Below, in pieces: positions 55,557 to 64,000 of a stretch of DNA of 64,000 nt (positions are counted from its first letter, which is position 1; every line of letters starts with the position of its first letter). The notes beneath the pieces are model-generated. The model saw only the letters and a list, made by a program, of their open reading frames with translations, searched no databases and was not told where the DNA came from. A program made the translations under genes and the position numbers. The stretch is taken from the NCBI GenBank assembly GCA_019623805.1, contig CP053680.1, positions 2,458,001 through 2,522,000 of the forward strand. The letters are read 5' to 3'. This stretch comes from Gammaproteobacteria bacterium (ex Lamellibrachia satsuma). Its GTDB lineage: Bacteria > Pseudomonadota > Gammaproteobacteria > Chromatiales > Chromatiaceae.

Positions 55557-57224
<1,668 letters not shown>

Positions 57225-57259: not shown

Positions 57260-57292
57260 TGCCCTGCGCCGTGAGGCGCGGGGCTTTTTTTT
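57260..57292 (+). terminator. rho-independent terminator of groES-groEL
   Basis: TGCCCTGCGCC, loop GTGA, GGCGCGGGGC, then eight T residues. A strong G+C stem directly downstream of the groEL stop. Confidence 0.9.
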
Positions 57293-57509
57293 GCGCTAAC
57301 TAAATTATCTCTCCTGGAGGTCGCTATACAAGCATTGAGCAGTGACTGGTGGGTGGCGCAGGTATTCAATCTGTTCGCCGATATAATCGAGCAACTGGCG
57401 GGGCAGGTTTCAGGTGTTGCGGCTGATCTGTGTCATCTTGTGTTCATCTATACCTGCTATTATGTTTCTTGTACACGGTCGTCGGGCTTAGTTACAGCAA
57501 AGATAGATA

Positions 57510-58034
57510 ATGGATAACATTTCCAGGGAACCCCCTCTCACTCTGCCGCACTATCTGTTCATATTTGCCACGGTCTATCTGCTCTGGTTGTTGCTGGTGG
57601 GTGAGCTTTCACGACATGAGCTGATATTAGGCGGCCTGGTCTCTCTTGTCGTGACGCTGGTGTCTGCGCCCCATCTGCTGATTTTCGGCGGGGTGAAACT
57701 GCGTATCGATGCACCGCTTCATCTGCTGCGCTATCTCGGCTATTTTTTTGTTGCGTTGATACGTGCCAACCTGGATATGGCGCGCCGAATCCTCTCCCCC
57801 TCCCTGCCGATCAATCCCAGCATGGTGGCGGTAGAGACCGGATTGCGCTCAACCCTGGGCCGCCTGATGCTGGCCAACAGCATCACCCTGACACCCGGTA
57901 CGCTCTCTGTCGATGTTAAAGGCAATCGTATCCTGGTCCATTGGGTGGATGCCTCTCCCGGTGTTGATCTCGAGGCAGCGACACGAGAGATTGCGGCAGG
58001 ATTTGAACGTCACCTGGGTGGTTTTCTGCGATGA
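57510..58034 (+). CDS. mnhE: MnhE/MrpE-family subunit
   Basis: 174 residues with two or three helices at the N terminus (HYLFIFATVYLLWLLLVGELS) and a soluble C-terminal half. The family phrase NPSMVAVETGLRSTLGRLMLANSITLTPGTLSVDV is diagnostic. MnhE occurs in Mrp-type sodium/proton antiporters and in Mbh/Mbx complexes (subunit A). First gene of a chain in which every following start overlaps the preceding stop. Confidence 0.93.
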   Translation: MDNISREPPLTLPHYLFIFATVYLLWLLLVGELSRHELILGGLVSLVVTLVSAPHLLIFGGVKLRIDAPLHLLRYLGYFFVALIRANLDMARRILSPSLPINPSMVAVETGLRSTLGRLMLANSITLTPGTLSVDVKGNRILVHWVDASPGVDLEAATREIAAGFERHLGGFLR

Positions 58035-58297
58035 CACTCAATTCACTGGAACTGATCGTTGCAGCAATGCTTGGTGTTGCTGTTCTGCTGGGTCTGTTGC
58101 GTCTGGTTCTCGGCCCCACAGCGCCTGACCGCATTGTCAGTGCCGATACGATTTCCGTAATCATCACCGCCGGTCTGACTGGTCTTGCGGCCTGGTTCGG
58201 CAGTGCCCTCTATCTCTATGTGGCGCTGATCTACGGCATTCTTGCCTTCGTCGGTGTGGTTGCGCTGGCAAGAACAATTGAGGGAGGCCGTCAATGA
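58031..58297 (+). CDS. mnhF: MnhF/MrpF-family subunit
   Basis: 88 residues, three helices. Typical are the GPTAPDRIVSADTIS stretch after the first helix and GSALYLYVALIYGILAFVGVVALAR. Corresponds to subunit B in Mbh/Mbx numbering. ATGA overlap with mnhE. Confidence 0.92.
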   Translation: MTLNSLELIVAAMLGVAVLLGLLRLVLGPTAPDRIVSADTISVIITAGLTGLAAWFGSALYLYVALIYGILAFVGVVALARTIEGGRQ

Positions 58298-58629
58298 GAT
58301 TGCTGGCGGATCTGTTTCTTCTGATTGGTGCGGCGTTTGCCTTGTTGAGTGCGTTGGGATTGCTGCGCATGCCGGACACCTATAACCGCATCCAGGCAGG
58401 TACCAAGGCAGTTACACTGGGCGCGCTATCATTCATTCTGGGAATAGGATTGCTCTACCCTGAATGGTGGGCCAAGCTGCTGGTCATCGCCGGTTTTATC
58501 CTTTTCACCAATCCAGTGGGTTCGTCCTCAATCGCCCGTGCCATCCACTTGGCAGGGATTCAGTCCTGGCAGCGAGCCGCTTCGGATCCACAGGCCCTGA
58601 AAGCCCCTCAAGAGGATAAGTCGGCATGA
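58294..58629 (+). CDS. mnhG: MnhG/MrpG-family subunit
   Basis: 111 residues, three helices. LLIGAAFALLSALGLLRMPDTYNRIQAGTKAVTLG is the family hallmark, followed by FTNPVGSSSIARAIHLAGI. Corresponds to subunit C of Mbh/Mbx. ATGA overlap with mnhF; the stop runs into the DUF4040 gene. Confidence 0.92.
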   Translation: MRLLADLFLLIGAAFALLSALGLLRMPDTYNRIQAGTKAVTLGALSFILGIGLLYPEWWAKLLVIAGFILFTNPVGSSSIARAIHLAGIQSWQRAASDPQALKAPQEDKSA

Positions 58630-58874
58630 TCTGGGTGGCTGCGTTGATTGTCATCATGATGTTGGTCGCAGCGGTGACAGTGCTGCTGGTGCGTAATCAT
58701 ATTGCGGCGGTGGCTGCTGCATCCCTGGTCTCGCTGCTGCTCTCGGTGCTGTTCGTATTGTTGAGGGCGCCGGATGTGGCGATGACGGAGGCTGCAGTTG
58801 GCGCAGGTCTCAGTAGTGTGATCCTGGCGCTGGCCTTGCGTCGCCTTGGACTGGGGCGAGTGAAAGATGCGTAA
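58626..58874 (+). CDS. DUF4040 / MbhD-like subunit
   Basis: 82 residues, two to three helices. LVSLLLSVLFVLLRAPDVAMTEAAVGAGLSSVILALALRRL is the DUF4040 pattern, found as the C-terminal region of MrpA but as a separate protein (MbhD/MbxD) in membrane-bound hydrogenase and sulfane reductase complexes. Its separate existence here is one of the arguments for an Mbh/Mbx-like complex. Confidence 0.9.
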   Translation: MIWVAALIVIMMLVAAVTVLLVRNHIAAVAAASLVSLLLSVLFVLLRAPDVAMTEAAVGAGLSSVILALALRRLGLGRVKDA

Positions 58875-59556
58875 TCTGGCAGCCCTGGTCTTTGTCGGCG
58901 GACTGGCCTTTCTGCTGTTGGTCATCTTCAATCAGTTTGATTTTGCCCAGGCACCCATGATCGTCGGGCAGGGTATTCTGACGGATGCGCCGGACCGGGT
59001 GGGTGCGGCCAACATCGTGACTGCGGTGGTGCTCGGCTATCGCGGCATCGATACCCTGGGGGAGATATCGATACTGTTTGCCGCCTCGGTTGCGGCGGGT
59101 CTGGTGTTAGGCAGGCGCAGGACCGATGTACGCCGCGATCCCCCCGGCGGTTTTATACTGCGCAGTGGTGTCGCGCTGCTCTTCCCACTGATGTTGGTGG
59201 TGGGTTTCTATATCATCCTGCACGGTCATCTTACCCCTGGTGGTGGTTTCCAGGGAGGCGTAATACTCGCGGCCGCATTTTTTCTGCCGCTTCTGGCGCG
59301 TCCTGAGACCCCGGTCAATCATGCCGGACTCAGCATTGTGGAGGGTGGGGCCGGAGCGGTCTTTATCCTGACGGGTTTGGCAGCCCTGCTGCAGGGCGGC
59401 GAGTTTCTCCAGCCACTGCTGGATAACGGCGTATTGGGTGAACTGGTCTCTGCCGGAACCCTGCCGCTGCTCTATCTGGCGGTGGGTCTCAAGGTGGGGG
59501 CGGAACTGGCCGGATTGATGGCCCGTCTCGCGGATGTAGAGGTTGATGAGCCATGA
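58867..59556 (+). CDS. MbhE-MnhB fusion subunit
   Basis: 229 residues. The N-terminal 80 residues, with GAANIVTAVVLGYRGIDTLGEISILFAASV, match the small MbhE/MrpA-end domain. From about 90 on, the MnhB domain is clear: RSGVALLFPLMLVVGFYIILHGHLTPGGGFQGGVILAAAF. The two units, which are separate in Pyrococcus Mbh, are joined here. ATG overlaps the DUF4040 stop by eight bases. Confidence 0.88.
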   Translation: MRNLAALVFVGGLAFLLLVIFNQFDFAQAPMIVGQGILTDAPDRVGAANIVTAVVLGYRGIDTLGEISILFAASVAAGLVLGRRRTDVRRDPPGGFILRSGVALLFPLMLVVGFYIILHGHLTPGGGFQGGVILAAAFFLPLLARPETPVNHAGLSIVEGGAGAVFILTGLAALLQGGEFLQPLLDNGVLGELVSAGTLPLLYLAVGLKVGAELAGLMARLADVEVDEP

Positions 59557-60008
59557 TGCCGATCGAGATAGGAACGGTGCTGTATGCCGGGGCCATCGGT
59601 CTGGTGGTGATCGGGATTGCCGGCATTGTGCTGTCGCACCATCTGTTTCGCATCATCCTGGCGTTGGTGATTGCCGAGGCGGGCGCCAATCTTCTGCTGG
59701 TGCTCTCCGGTTTTCGTTGGGAGGCCATTGCGCCGATTATTAGCGGCGGTGGTGCAACGCCAACCATGGTTGATCCTGTGCCTCAGGCGATGGTGCTTAC
59801 CTCGATCGTGATCGGTGTCGGCGTACAGGCACTGGCGTTGAGTCTGACGCTACGCGCCTACGGAGCCTATAAAACCCTGGATATCAGGGAGCTGCAACGG
59901 CGCATGAGTGCCGATCTGGCAGGAGAGGCGGGAACGCCGCTGCCGCTGAGTCTGGAAGAACCGGTGGGCGGGCGGCCTCTGCCTGCGGCTGAGGGTGACG
60001 GCAGATGA
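59553..60008 (+). CDS. mnhC: MnhC/NuoK-like subunit
   Basis: 151 residues with three helices; IGTVLYAGAIGLVVIGIAGIVLSHHLFRIILALVIAEAGANLLLVL contains the Glu in helix 2 typical of NuoK/MrpC. PTMVDPVPQAMVLTSIVIGV is the other family block. A 40-residue polar tail is longer than usual. ATGA overlap with the preceding gene. Confidence 0.92.
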   Translation: MMPIEIGTVLYAGAIGLVVIGIAGIVLSHHLFRIILALVIAEAGANLLLVLSGFRWEAIAPIISGGGATPTMVDPVPQAMVLTSIVIGVGVQALALSLTLRAYGAYKTLDIRELQRRMSADLAGEAGTPLPLSLEEPVGGRPLPAAEGDGR

Positions 60009-61465
60009 ACACGATTGTGCTGACCGTGGTGTTGCCCCTGCTTGCAGCATTCGTCGTTCCGGCTTTGTCGCGGGTCTCTCCGTTGCTTGGGCGGCTGCTG
60101 GGGCCGCTCACCCTTGCCTATGCCATCCTGCTGACCCTGCAGATTTGGCTGGGAATGGAGGGCAAGCCTTACTCCGTTGCGCTGGGTGGTTTTCAACCAC
60201 CGCTGGGGATCAATTTCTATGTGGACCAGCTGAGCCTGCTGTTCACTTTTCTGACGCTGGTGACGAGCCTGCTGTTGTGGCCCTGGCGGAATGAAACGGA
60301 ACCGCGCCAATACGCCTTGACGCTGCTGCTCGCAGCATCCGCCTGCGGTCTGGCGCTCTCCGGCGATCTGTTCAATATCTATGTCTTCTATGAGCTGATC
60401 TCGGTTGCCTCCTTTGGTCTGGCGGCGGCCACCCGCAGTGGCGCATCATTTGCCGCCAGTCTGCGCTACCTGATCCTCAGTGGCCTGGGCAGCGTACTGG
60501 CGCTTTGCGGCATCGCAATTGTCTATCTTCAGAGCGGTACCCTGAATCTGGCGCAACTCTCCCAGTTGGCTCCGGAGACCCTGAATACCCCCCTGGGAAT
60601 GTCTGCCTTTGCCTTGATTCTGTTGGGTGTCGGGGTGAAGGGTGAACTCTTTCCGGTCAACAGCTGGGTGCCGGAGGTCTACGCTGCCGCTTCGAGCCGG
60701 GTGTCTGGATTATTGGCGGGACTGGTCTCCAAGCTGGCGGTGTTGGTGATCGTGCGCCTGCTGGTGCTGCTGTTTCAACAGGAATCTGCGTTGCAGCTGA
60801 TGCTGATACTGGGACTGTTGGGAACGATCAGTGGCGAATTGGCTGCCTGGCGGGCGAAGGATATGAATCGCATGCTGGCCTTCTCGTCCATCGGACAGTT
60901 GGGGGTCATCTTTATTGCCTTCTCCATTCCCGGTGAAACCGGTCTGTTTGCAGGTCTGGCACTCTCGCTGCACCACCTGCTGGTCAAGCCCGCGCTGTTC
61001 CTGCTGGCCGAGCGCTGGCGGGGCTCGCTGGCGGGTTTGCGGGGAGCCGGACTCGCCTCTCCCGTTGCCGGCGGGATGTTTGTGTTGCTTGCGCTCTCTC
61101 TGGTGGGGATGCCTCCGCTGCCCGGCTTCTGGGCAAAGTTTCTCCTCTTTACCGGTCTTGCGGCACAGCAGTCAGTGATCTACCAGGTTGCCCTCGGGGT
61201 GGTGTTGCTGTCGATTGTGATCGAAGCCAACTATCTGTTCCGGGTGGTGATGAACCTGTTCCAACCGGCCGGGGATAATAGTGTGGCGGTCACCAGCGAT
61301 CACGGCTGGTTGAATCTCGGTACGACTTTTCTGCTCTCCGCATTGCTGATTGCGGGCATGCTGTTTATGGGGCCGCTTGGGGCTTGGCTTGAAGAGGTGG
61401 CGATACAGGCGGCTGACCCGGTGCTCTATTTCGACACAGTCTTTTCTGTTTCGGCCATCCACTGA
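60005..61465 (+). CDS. mnhD: MnhD/NuoN-like antiporter subunit
   Basis: 486 residues with about 14 helices, of the proton-pumping subunit family. Key residues are the Glu in NIYVFYELISVASFGLAAATRS, the Lys in GVGVKGELFPVNSWVPEVYAAASS, and the His in ALSLHHLLVKPALFLLAE. Corresponds to Mbh/Mbx subunit H. ATG overlaps the mnhC stop by four bases. Confidence 0.93.
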   Translation: MNTIVLTVVLPLLAAFVVPALSRVSPLLGRLLGPLTLAYAILLTLQIWLGMEGKPYSVALGGFQPPLGINFYVDQLSLLFTFLTLVTSLLLWPWRNETEPRQYALTLLLAASACGLALSGDLFNIYVFYELISVASFGLAAATRSGASFAASLRYLILSGLGSVLALCGIAIVYLQSGTLNLAQLSQLAPETLNTPLGMSAFALILLGVGVKGELFPVNSWVPEVYAAASSRVSGLLAGLVSKLAVLVIVRLLVLLFQQESALQLMLILGLLGTISGELAAWRAKDMNRMLAFSSIGQLGVIFIAFSIPGETGLFAGLALSLHHLLVKPALFLLAERWRGSLAGLRGAGLASPVAGGMFVLLALSLVGMPPLPGFWAKFLLFTGLAAQQSVIYQVALGVVLLSIVIEANYLFRVVMNLFQPAGDNSVAVTSDHGWLNLGTTFLLSALLIAGMLFMGPLGAWLEEVAIQAADPVLYFDTVFSVSAIH

Positions 61466-61475
61466 GGGGTTTGCT

Positions 61476-63347
61476 GTGACGCCATTGGATGAACTGCTGC
61501 TCTTCTCCGGCCTGACTCTGGTGCTGATGCTGGTATTGGGACGCTTCAGTTACGCGGGCAAGGTTGCCACTGTGTTTTACGGTGGGCAGTTGCTGTTTCT
61601 GGCGAAGATGGCGGATCGGATCGCCGATGGCGCGATTGTGACTTTCTCGTTGCAGGTTGAGCTGTTCGGCTTGCAGATGAGTTGGCGTTTCGACGCCCTA
61701 TCCTGGTTTTTTGCAGTTATCACTCTGGGCGCAGGCCTTCTCAGCAGCTGGTACGCCAGCGGTAAGTGGGGAGAGCGTTTTCGCCGGCGTGGCGGCAATC
61801 TCTGGCTGTTGCATGTTGCCTTGGCAGCGAATGTCTTTTCCATGCTGATCCTGTTGGGTAGCGGTGATCTGCTGGCGCTATTCATCGGCTGGGAGTTGGT
61901 CAGTTGGGCCAGTTTTCTTTTGATGACCGTGGCGGGTGGCCGCGCGATTCAGGCAGCTATGCGCTACATCACCTACGCCATGAGTGGCGCAATGGCGATC
62001 CTGGCGGGAATCGTTCTGCTCTGGTCCCATGCTGGTGGCCTGCAGTACGCACAGATCATCGATGTGATGCCGCAATTATCCCAAGCACAGGTCTGGCTAC
62101 TGGTGGCGCTGTTTGGCTCAGGTTTTGCGGTCAAGATGGGACTGTTGCCGCTCCATCTTTGGCAGGCGGCGGCGTATGCCGAGACGCCGGGACCGGGGGC
62201 TGCCTTCTTCGGCGCCATCTCTGCCCGCATGGGGCTCTACGCCATCATCCTGGTGCTGGTGCAGTTGATCGGTTTGGCACGGTTGAGTGAGTTGACGATC
62301 CCCTTCACCTTTCTTGATATGCGCGACCTCTGGGCCTGGATTGCAGTGCTGACCATTATCCTGCCGACCTATACCGCGCTGCGCCAGACCGATGCCCGCT
62401 ACCTGCTTGCCTGGCACGGCATCGGCCAGGGCGGCTACATGCTGCTTGGGGTGGTGTTGGGGGATGCCCTGGGTAGTGCCGGCGGGTTGCTGCACGTCTT
62501 CAACTATGCGACCAATCAGGCCGTGCTCTTTTTCGCGGTATTTGCCGTGATGTTTCGTACGGGGACTGCTGACCTGAACAAGCTTGGTGGATTGATCACC
62601 CGCATGCCGATCTCCTTTTTTGCCATGTTGGTGGGCATTATCGGGCTGGCCGGGTTACCGCCGATGAATGGCTTTGTCTCCAAGTGGTTCGTCTATCGCT
62701 CATTGATGATTGAAGGCGAGCCTCTGCTCTTCCTGGGGGCGATAATCGGCACCCTGGGCACTATCCTGTCGGTCTACAAGCTGATTCATAACACGTTTCT
62801 GGGACAGTTGCGGGTGGAACATGTTGAAGTGCGCGAGGCGCCCTGGAGCATGGTGGCACCGATGATTATTCTCATGTTGCTGATCTTCGCGACCGGCGTG
62901 GCACCGGGCCTGGTTTTGGATTGGGTGGCGCTGGTGCAGTCGGCTGTCGGCCTGCCGGTGGTTGAGAACACGCTTGGCGGTGTCGAGCTGGCAAGTGGTT
63001 CCCTGGATATGCTCTGGGTGGTGGGGGTGTTGTTTGCCGGTTTCGGTATTGGTGCGCTGCTCTTCTACTCCGGCGGTCGCACCCGGCAGGTCCATCAACT
63101 GGACAACTATGCGGGTGGACACTTTCTGACGGCCGAAACCCGCTACCACTACAGCGACAATTTCTATGCTGGCCTGATGCACCTGATAAGACCCTGGTAT
63201 CGGGGGAGTTTCGTCTGGCTTGAGTCGACCCTGGGATCCCTGCTGGGAATCGCCGCGAGTCTTATGCAACGGCTTTACGGCGCGCGGCATCCCTCCATCT
63301 ATCTGCTGGTCACTGTCGTTGCAACACTGACCTGGGTATTGCTGTGA
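61476..63347 (+). CDS. second NuoL/MnhD-like antiporter subunit (H'-like)
   Basis: 623 residues from GTG 61476, with GAGGGG six bases upstream; the frame is open earlier but only inside mnhD. About 16 helices. LFIGWELVSWASFLLMT holds the essential Glu and GFAVKMGLLPLHLWQAAAYAETPGPGAAFF the Lys. The C-terminal third continues past the antiporter core, with a final amphipathic region (AETRYHYSDNFYAG). An extra large antiporter subunit after the D-type one is a property of Mbx (H'). Stop overlaps the next start (TGATG). Confidence 0.9.
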   Translation: MTPLDELLLFSGLTLVLMLVLGRFSYAGKVATVFYGGQLLFLAKMADRIADGAIVTFSLQVELFGLQMSWRFDALSWFFAVITLGAGLLSSWYASGKWGERFRRRGGNLWLLHVALAANVFSMLILLGSGDLLALFIGWELVSWASFLLMTVAGGRAIQAAMRYITYAMSGAMAILAGIVLLWSHAGGLQYAQIIDVMPQLSQAQVWLLVALFGSGFAVKMGLLPLHLWQAAAYAETPGPGAAFFGAISARMGLYAIILVLVQLIGLARLSELTIPFTFLDMRDLWAWIAVLTIILPTYTALRQTDARYLLAWHGIGQGGYMLLGVVLGDALGSAGGLLHVFNYATNQAVLFFAVFAVMFRTGTADLNKLGGLITRMPISFFAMLVGIIGLAGLPPMNGFVSKWFVYRSLMIEGEPLLFLGAIIGTLGTILSVYKLIHNTFLGQLRVEHVEVREAPWSMVAPMIILMLLIFATGVAPGLVLDWVALVQSAVGLPVVENTLGGVELASGSLDMLWVVGVLFAGFGIGALLFYSGGRTRQVHQLDNYAGGHFLTAETRYHYSDNFYAGLMHLIRPWYRGSFVWLESTLGSLLGIAASLMQRLYGARHPSIYLLVTVVATLTWVLL

Positions 63348-64000
63348 TGAGTATTCAAACCCTGCTGATGGAACTGGTTTTGATGCCGTTGGTAGCCTTT
63401 GTTGTCGGTCTCTTTATGGTGCTGATGCTGCGCAGGATTGGCGCCAAACTGCAACGTCGGGTTGGTCCACCTATGATGCAGCCGCTCTATGACATCGTAA
63501 AACTCTACGGCAAAAAGACCCAGATCTCCCATGGCTGGATGCACGATATCGGTATTGTCATGGCCGTGGGTGGATATGTGGCGGCGGAGACCCTGCTGCC
63601 GGTGCCGGGCATGGACGGCATCGCTGACAAAGGCGGCCTGGTGACCCTGGTCTACGTGATGATGATCCCCTCGCTGGGTCTGGCGCTCGGCGTGGGCCAG
63701 TGTGCCAATCCCAACGGCTCCATCGGTATTGCCCGGGCGTTGACGGCGATGCTTGCCTACGATGTGCCGTTTGTCATCGTGGTTTTCGGCGTGGCCTGGT
63801 ATTTCGGCACCACCAATCTGGTCGACATCATTGCGATACAACAGGCAGGTGGGGTTGCGGGATGGGGGGCGATAGCGATGCCGCTGCTGGCTATAGCCGG
63901 ACTGTTTGCCCTGCAGGGCATGTTAGGCAAGCAGCCTTTTGAGATCTATATCGCCCCGGCGGAGATCGCCACTGGTCCAATGGTGGAGATGAGCGGTAAA
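63347..64000 (+). CDS. NuoH/MbhM-like membrane subunit (partial, 3' end outside window)
   Basis: 218 residues before the window ends. The family motif is RRIGAKLQRRVGPPMMQPLYDIVKLYGKK near the N terminus, followed by GSIGIARALTAMLAYDVPF and LLGKQPFEIYIAPAEIATGP (read as LGKQPFEI and following), the quinone/coupling loop of NuoH, HycD and EchB. It starts one base inside the previous stop. This gene ties the antiporter set to a redox module expected further on (NuoB, C, D, I-like genes). Confidence 0.9.
   Translation, partial: MSIQTLLMELVLMPLVAFVVGLFMVLMLRRIGAKLQRRVGPPMMQPLYDIVKLYGKKTQISHGWMHDIGIVMAVGGYVAAETLLPVPGMDGIADKGGLVTLVYVMMIPSLGLALGVGQCANPNGSIGIARALTAMLAYDVPFVIVVFGVAWYFGTTNLVDIIAIQQAGGVAGWGAIAMPLLAIAGLFALQGMLGKQPFEIYIAPAEIATGPMVEMSGK

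Follow-up and report, generated by a model that had tools for sequence, protein, structure and literature searches.

Nine open reading frames lie in tandem on the plus strand at positions 57510-64000 of a 64,000-nt stretch of contig CP053680.1 (positions 2,458,001-2,522,000, forward strand; hereafter the window). Most of them overlap, and the ninth, which is NuoH-like, is interrupted by the window end (Table 1). The contig is the only one in the 4.32 Mb genome of Gammaproteobacteria bacterium (ex Lamellibrachia satsuma) (GCA_019623805.1), a deep-sea tubeworm symbiont. Each of the nine products is confirmed by Pfam above the curated cut-off, with the exception of the MbhE match, which reaches 24.6 against a cut-off of 27 bits. 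Beyond the window the complete unit comprises 14 consecutive genes on one strand, in the order A-B-C-D-(E)F-G-H-H'-M, NuoB, NuoC, NuoD, a NuoI fusion and rubrerythrin, and it ends at 69243 in extended window coordinates. The same gene order is kept in tens of other genomes and is therefore not a chance arrangement, and a search for conserved genes outside the A-to-rubrerythrin unit returned lineage-specific neighbours only. Between M and J lies an inverted repeat that is left out of the unit because it is single-copy in the genome and inconstant across relatives. The 64-kb window contains no Rfam families.

Table 1. Genes of the unit. Positions above 64000 are extended window coordinates on the same strand.
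Feature	Position	Strand	Basis or remark
MbxA (MrpE-like)	57510-58034	+	PF01899, E 7.7e-37
MbxB (MrpF-like)	58031-58297	+	PF04066
MbxC (MrpG-like)	58294-58629	+	PF03334; TIGR01300 over cut-off
MbxD (MbhD/DUF4040)	58626-58874	+	PF13244
MbxEF (MbhE-like part fused to MrpB/MnhB)	58867-59556	+	PF20501 (sub-cut-off) and PF04039
MbxG (MrpC/NuoK-like)	59553-60008	+	PF00420
MbxH (MrpD/NuoN-like antiporter subunit)	60005-61465	+	PF00361; top NCBIfam match PRK08377
MbxH' (second antiporter-like subunit, 623 aa, GTG start)	61476-63347	+	top PDB match MBS 6u8y_X
MbxM (NuoH-like, 300 codons)	63344-64246	+	PF00146; 219 codons inside window, rest past 64000
MbxJ/NuoB	64474-65208	+	past window end
MbxK/NuoC	65201-65764	+	past window end
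MbxL/NuoD	65761-66903	+	past window end
MbxN-NfnL fusion (NuoI-like N)	66903-68741	+	past window end
Rubrerythrin-like	68710-69243	+	past window end

A sequence-only reading of the window had equated the order E, F, G, DUF4040, (E-like)-B, C, D, second antiporter and NuoH with that of Mbx/Mbs complexes, and all nine frames are present with Pfam backing. It had also proposed looking for NuoB-, NuoC-, NuoD- and NuoI-like genes past 64000, and all four follow on the same strand. A plain Mrp antiporter, which that reading had set aside, is ruled out by the occurrence of NuoH, B, C, D and I homologues in one unit. Formate hydrogenlyase genes, which would have spoken against it, do not follow in the unit, and formate hydrogenlyase is ruled out by the lack of FDH genes together with the incomplete nickel cysteines. 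The proposed check of the four nickel-binding cysteines of the NuoD-like subunit L placed it on the Mbx side: two are missing, as in MBS. One cysteine per pair is kept (C77 and C374, corresponding to C85 and C385 of MbsL) and the second of each CxxC pair is gone, which rules out a group 4 [NiFe] hydrogenase (MBH). A quinone-reducing complex I is likewise ruled out, as the unit has no NuoEFG and the quinone-site residues H38 and Y87 of Nqo4 are replaced in L by E29 and V78, the same letters as in MbsL.

The MBS subunit order is A-B-C-D-EF-G-H-H'-M-J-K-L-N. When five subunits (EF, H', M, J and L) were compared with solved PDB structures, all scored highest, by a wide margin, against MBS, the membrane-bound sulfane reductase of Pyrococcus furiosus. 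The scores were 410 bits for L (258 for Nqo4), 237 against 124 bits for J, 179 bits for MbxM with 6u8y_M (72 for MBH and 41 for bacterial complex I NuoH) and 175 bits for H' with 6u8y_X (125 for MBH H), and MbxEF gave a near full-length match to 6u8y_E at 157 versus 55 bits. E and F are fused here and in MBS, whereas in MBH they are separate chains. The cluster motif of J, CTGCG, is identical to that of 6u8y_J in a gap-free alignment, and this shortened motif is predicted to leave one cluster iron without a cysteine, as in MBS. In a tree of L, MBS and these loci split from complex I with support of 100/100. MBS itself is described as lacking H38 and Y87 and retaining two of the four cysteines (PMC7684303). 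The best reading of these sequences is that they encode a membrane-located bacterial MBS/MBX, a member of the complex I superfamily.

A feature that the sequence-only reading did not foresee is the fusion of the NuoI-like subunit N to an FAD protein of the NfnL/DsrL type. Residues 152-605 match the NfnL fold with Z up to 44.9; NfnL is the nearest fold, and the sequence is also close. The cluster cysteines (eight of NuoI type and eight of NfnL type) are invariant in 68 homologues, and in 68/68 the NfnL glutamate cluster ligand is replaced by a lysine (Lys264) and a new cysteine (Cys237) is present. In place of the NADP motif YRR stands A-L-E here, and A-L-E/D in most of the 68 homologues; three of them keep YRR. 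In the related DsrL, a YRR replacement of this kind marks NAD(H) use (PMC7596348); from this one motif and an argument from homology, the fused flavin module is predicted to use NAD(H). No report of such a fused NAD(H) module was found in searchable papers, and an earlier mention in subscription papers is possible. The fusion bears directly on the electron donor. The earlier proposal of an Mbx-like complex holds, but the donor need not be ferredoxin, since the NuoI-like subunit is fused to a flavoprotein of predicted NAD(H) specificity. Ferredoxin may nonetheless dock on the NuoI part of the fusion.

The unit was found in 13 of 274 sampled gammaproteobacterial genomes, with the fusion and J in the identical 13. 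That such complexes are unusual in gammaproteobacteria is thus borne out for the class as a whole, but not among dsr-type sulfur oxidisers, where the unit is widespread. All 13 carriers have dsrA, compared with about 94 of the 274 genomes overall (p 5e-7, uncorrected for common descent, with the carriers spanning 13 families), and RuBisCO, matched in 11 of the 13, is a weaker correlate. The unit is also carried by Spirochaetes, where rubrerythrin is fused on as well.

From the genes, the fusion, the motifs and their conservation, all read directly from sequence, we infer an ion-pumping, reversible NADH:sulfane-sulfur oxidoreductase, a function that seems moderately probable. An MBS-type sulfur-reducing site combined with a built-in NADH flavoprotein would probably link NADH to stored sulfur with ion pumping. 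NADH would exchange electrons with the FAD in the NfnL-like module, and these would pass through the module's two [4Fe-4S] clusters, the two of the NuoI-like part and then the proximal [4Fe-4S] cluster in J. With one iron lacking a cysteine ligand as in MBS, this last cluster would reduce (or oxidise) sulfane sulfur, for example polysulfide, in a chamber formed by J, L and M. Through M and H', this chamber would be coupled to a pair of antiporter-type proton channels as well as to an integral Mrp-like part for Na+/H+ exchange, such that the reaction would move ions. The enzyme would work near equilibrium and is probably reversible. By our own figure, electron transfer from NADH to polysulfide yields little energy, about 60 mV; at normal membrane voltage this would suffice to move less than one ion for each NADH, and net pumping in that direction would therefore be marginal. 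The likeliest main use in the symbiont would be the disposal of NADH electrons on stored sulfur during a shortage of oxygen or nitrate, with part of the energy conserved in an ion gradient, and the rubrerythrin probably shields an oxygen-sensitive cluster. Beggiatoaceae are known to respire the sulfur that they store (PMC4959497).

The same machine could run mainly in reverse. In sulfur oxidisers it would then be a reversible, gradient-driven persulfide:NAD+ oxidoreductase, in which the ion gradient drives electrons from persulfide or sulfide sulfur to NAD+, bypassing quinone and feeding CO2 fixation; we regard this as possible but distinctly less likely. The carriers are mostly related to lithoautotrophic sulfur oxidisers and their dsrA and RuBisCO complements fit such a role, as does the bias of the related DsrL-1A, in the oxidative pathway, towards NAD+ reduction (PMC7596348). 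Moving electrons from sulfane sulfur to NAD+ would cost, on our own estimate, about 60 mV, as against about 400 mV from ubiquinol. However, two carriers, one of them only 88% complete, have no RuBisCO match, and the unit also occurs in Spirochaetes, which are mainly fermentative. If true, this reading would supply dsr-type lithotrophs with a reverse electron transport route that has been missing, and would add to a complex I-type machine a second NADH port that was built independently.

Alternatively, the complex could be an ion-pumping ferredoxin:NAD+ oxidoreductase, in which the NuoI part receives electrons from ferredoxin, the NfnL part passes them to NAD+ and the J/L chamber serves solely for coupling. 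An earlier account assigned P. furiosus Mbx a ferredoxin:NADP+ oxidoreductase function (PMC6349859), the rTCA cycle of these symbionts uses ferredoxin (PMC6315080) and ferredoxin exchanges electrons with NfnL modules (PMC6405883). Yet the MBS-type motif of J and the chamber residues of L, needless for a mere coupling site, are conserved, and the genus has Rnf for the same reaction (PMC6315080), which makes this alternative rather improbable. A bifurcating Nfn transhydrogenase is ruled out by the absence of NfnS from the unit and the replacement of YRR and of the proximal-cluster glutamate (criteria from PMC7596348 and PMC6405883); an Nfn-kind bifurcating or confurcating enzyme built into the membrane complex, to which the kinship of the flavin module with NfnL might point, is very improbable given that missing partner, the altered low-potential proximal cluster and an electron chain with a single exit path.

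MBS has attracted study as an intermediate between hydrogenase and complex I, and its biochemistry is known from heat-loving archaea. On the NADH:sulfane-sulfur reading, its conserved counterpart in mesophilic sulfur oxidisers would represent a second way of feeding NADH into such a machine, wired directly onto NuoI and distinct from NuoEFG. It would also offer sulfur-storing bacteria and animal symbionts a candidate enzyme both for the anoxic respiration of their own stored sulfur and for NADH production from sulfur compounds. As strain-named carriers exist (among them Parasulfuritortus cantonensis LSR1, Lamprocystis purpurea DSM 4197 and Rectinema subterraneum SURF-ANA1), both roles are testable.

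Several known systems resemble the unit. The source genus includes tubeworm symbionts, and a "putative Mrp-Mbx complex" has been named in Ca. Endoriftia, the Riftia symbiont (Nat Microbiol 2024; PMC11636981). This is very likely an ortholog, given in the accessible text of that paper by name only, without function, direction or NfnL fusion; the same text reports co-expression in which Mrp-Mbx and sulfur globule proteins share first neighbours with the rTCA cycle. Thermotoga maritima likewise has an MBX, of 13 subunits, whose mbxA is up-regulated by sulfur (PMC9431562). A separate complex I (Nuo) copy near 3.10 Mb in the same genome shares NuoH, B, C, D and I homologues with the unit, but has NuoEFG for NADH and the quinone His/Tyr in NuoD, neither of which occurs in the Mbx-type unit. 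With NfnL/NfnB (5jca_L, 4ylf_B), GltD and DsrL the flavin module has in common the fold, two [4Fe-4S] clusters and FAD and NAD(P) sites; it differs from NfnL/NfnB in the swapped YRR, the exchange of the glutamate ligand for lysine plus a new cysteine, the lack of NfnS and the fusion to NuoI. The closest relative is P. furiosus MBS (formerly MBX; PDB 6u8y), which shares the subunit set and order, the EF fusion, the J motif, the L chamber residues and the two kept cysteines. The rubrerythrin gene is an addition here, and whereas N of archaeal MBS is a stand-alone ferredoxin-type subunit that accepts electrons from ferredoxin, N here bears a 460-residue flavoprotein module of predicted NAD(H) specificity, making the complex a variant of MBS rather than a standard one.

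Each of the nine genes that a sequence-only reading had assigned to an Mbx/Mbh-like complex (mbxA, B, C, D, EF, G, H, H' and M) is confirmed; they form a tandem series in which most neighbours overlap, and their subunit assignments agree with Pfam and NCBIfam. The proposed fusion of an E-like to a B-like subunit in EF is genuine, with residues 12-83 resembling MbhE (just under the Pfam cut-off) and residues 97-214 corresponding to MnhB. The genome is a single contig of 4.32 Mb (the window being G000:C1:2458001-2522000), from which 20 kb across the window edge was taken (L003; window coordinate = L003 coordinate + 53999). All four gene types expected past 64000, NuoB-, NuoC-, NuoD- and NuoI-like, follow on the same strand, and the ordinary complex I operon is separate, at about C1:3.10 Mb. 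Between groEL and mbxA a GC-rich hairpin with eight T after it resembles an intrinsic terminator setting groESL apart from the complex. The 227-bp mbxM-mbxJ gap contains a 24-bp perfect inverted repeat (GGGTCTGGTATCTCCTGCTGTGGG) that folds into a strong hairpin; the repeat has one copy in the genome, and the same gap in sister symbionts has other repeats or none. A row of three frames lies downstream of the complex: by eye, one for a TIR-like domain protein, a small one, and one for a protein with an ABC-type ATPase domain. The row is a possible defence or signalling cluster.

Features of the Mbx locus and related genes (window coordinates, extended on the same strand, unless prefixed)
Feature	Coordinates	Strand	Remark
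groEL	55569-57224
Hairpin and eight T	57261-57293
mbxA to mbxM, nine genes	57510-64000	+
Rest of NuoH (M)	to 64246	+
Inverted repeat	64274-64374		L003 10275-10375, just past window end
NuoB-like (J)	64474-65208	+	start set by homologues
NuoC-like (K)	65201-65764	+
NuoD-like (L)	65761-66903	+
612-aa protein	66903-68741	+	NuoI-like domain first
Rubrerythrin-like gene	68710-69243	+
TIR-like to ABC-type row	L003 17293-19849
First dsrA, full-length	G000:C1:484081-485286
DsrL-like frame	C1:995558-996850
Second dsrA, full-length	C1:1002196-1003398

Compared with all PDB chains by sequence, L, J, M, H' and EF each have the Pyrococcus furiosus sulfane reductase MBS (6u8y) as best match, well over the hydrogenase MBH or complex I, and an L-subunit tree separates MBS and all these loci from complex I (support 100/100, with long branches to the two references). 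The MBS chamber has neither His38 nor Tyr87 of Nqo4 and retains C85 and C385 of the four Ni cysteines; because the J motif is shortened, one iron of the proximal cluster has no Cys, and this iron does the chemistry (PMC7684303). The symbiont L has E29 and V78 at the His38/Tyr87 positions, the same letters as MbsL, whereas its own NuoD has His and Tyr; Val78 is invariant across 82 loci, none of which has His at position 29. The proposed Ni-cysteine check gave two of four, C77 and C374 matching the MbsL pair, and the J motif is YCTGCGAIELPP against FCTGCGGIEMPP in MBS. By these residues the catalytic site is of MBS type, which rules out both a hydrogenase and, with His38/Tyr87 replaced, a quinone-type complex I.

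The N subunit continues, in one fused protein, into a flavoprotein of the NfnL/GltD/DsrL type (PRK13984 match). In an AlphaFold model built from 56 aligned sequences (mean pLDDT 88.8), residues 152-605 match NfnL (Z 44-45, 36% identity). None of the eight NuoI cluster cysteines varies across 68 homologues, nor do eight cysteines of the NfnL part. All 68 also have Lys264 where NfnB has a Glu at its proximal cluster (Glu117 in T. maritima; PMC7596348), together with an extra Cys237, a concerted ligand swap from which we infer probable loss of the bifurcation-type cluster. The symbiont fusion has A456-L457-E458 at the position of the NADP motif YRR, which is kept in three homologues of another gammaproteobacterial branch (L126, L133, L134). 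In DsrL, NAD(H) use accompanies YRR loss, according to kinetics on model proteins (PMC7596348).

We infer that electrons would pass from NADH through FAD, two clusters, two further clusters and the J cluster to sulfane sulfur, with H, H' and the Mrp part moving ions. The potentials of NADH (about -320 mV) and polysulfide (about -260 mV) are nearly level, so the enzyme is probably reversible. A serious rival reading is that the complex runs in reverse for NADH supply. Sulfur reduction when oxygen is short is favoured as the direction of use because Beggiatoaceae respire stored sulfur anoxically (PMC4959497), the trophosome may be hypoxic (PMC6918071), and co-expression in the Riftia symbiont points the same way: there the Mrp-Mbx genes have neighbours in common with the rTCA cycle, as is also the case for dissimilatory nitrate reduction and sulfur globule proteins, and not with sulfide oxidation and the CBB cycle (PMC11636981).

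The complex occurs throughout the symbiont's genus (its own genome and 5/5 relatives), the matching named records being tubeworm endosymbionts of Escarpia and Lamellibrachia. A scan of species genomes yielded 541 relatives, and the best 80, which were retrieved, include Thiodiazotropha, Chromatiaceae, Sedimenticola, Thiolapillus, Parasulfuritortus, Gallionellaceae, Beggiatoaceae and Spirochaetes. Wherever the contig is long enough, non-Beggiatoaceae loci have the full gene order through the fusion, completed in proteobacteria by rubrerythrin. Unlike these, Beggiatoaceae loci (L099-L105, L109, L117; mostly Parabeggiatoa and Thiomargarita) have J, K and L apart from most membrane genes and the N-NfnL fusion. 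The end region of the spirochaete N-NfnL protein, judged by eye, resembles a fused-on rubrerythrin-like domain, which suggests that rubrerythrin belongs to the complex. H and H' share one frame of about 1050 codons in the second gammaproteobacterial branch (L126, L133, L134), and the NfnL part is absent from two loci, L127 and L131.

Of 274 genomes sampled from the class, 13 have J, each from a different family, and the fusion is in those 13 plus one cut-off copy. dsrA occurs in all 13 carriers (above cut-off in 12, truncated in one) against about 94/274 overall (hypergeometric p 5e-7, shared descent ignored), compared with RuBisCO in 11/13 against 133/274; the complex is thus tied more closely to dsr-type sulfur chemistry than to autotrophy. 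The symbiont genome itself holds two different dsrA genes, with a DsrL-like frame near the second.

Among known systems, the EF fusion is common to MBS and the symbiont complex, the two parts being separate chains in MBH. For the Riftia symbiont, PMC11636981 (2024) lists a 'putative Mrp-Mbx complex' whose function and direction it gives as unknown; a fused NAD(H) module is mentioned neither in its accessible text nor elsewhere in the searchable literature. Within that literature, then, the complex itself is already on record and the fused NAD(H) module is the new part.
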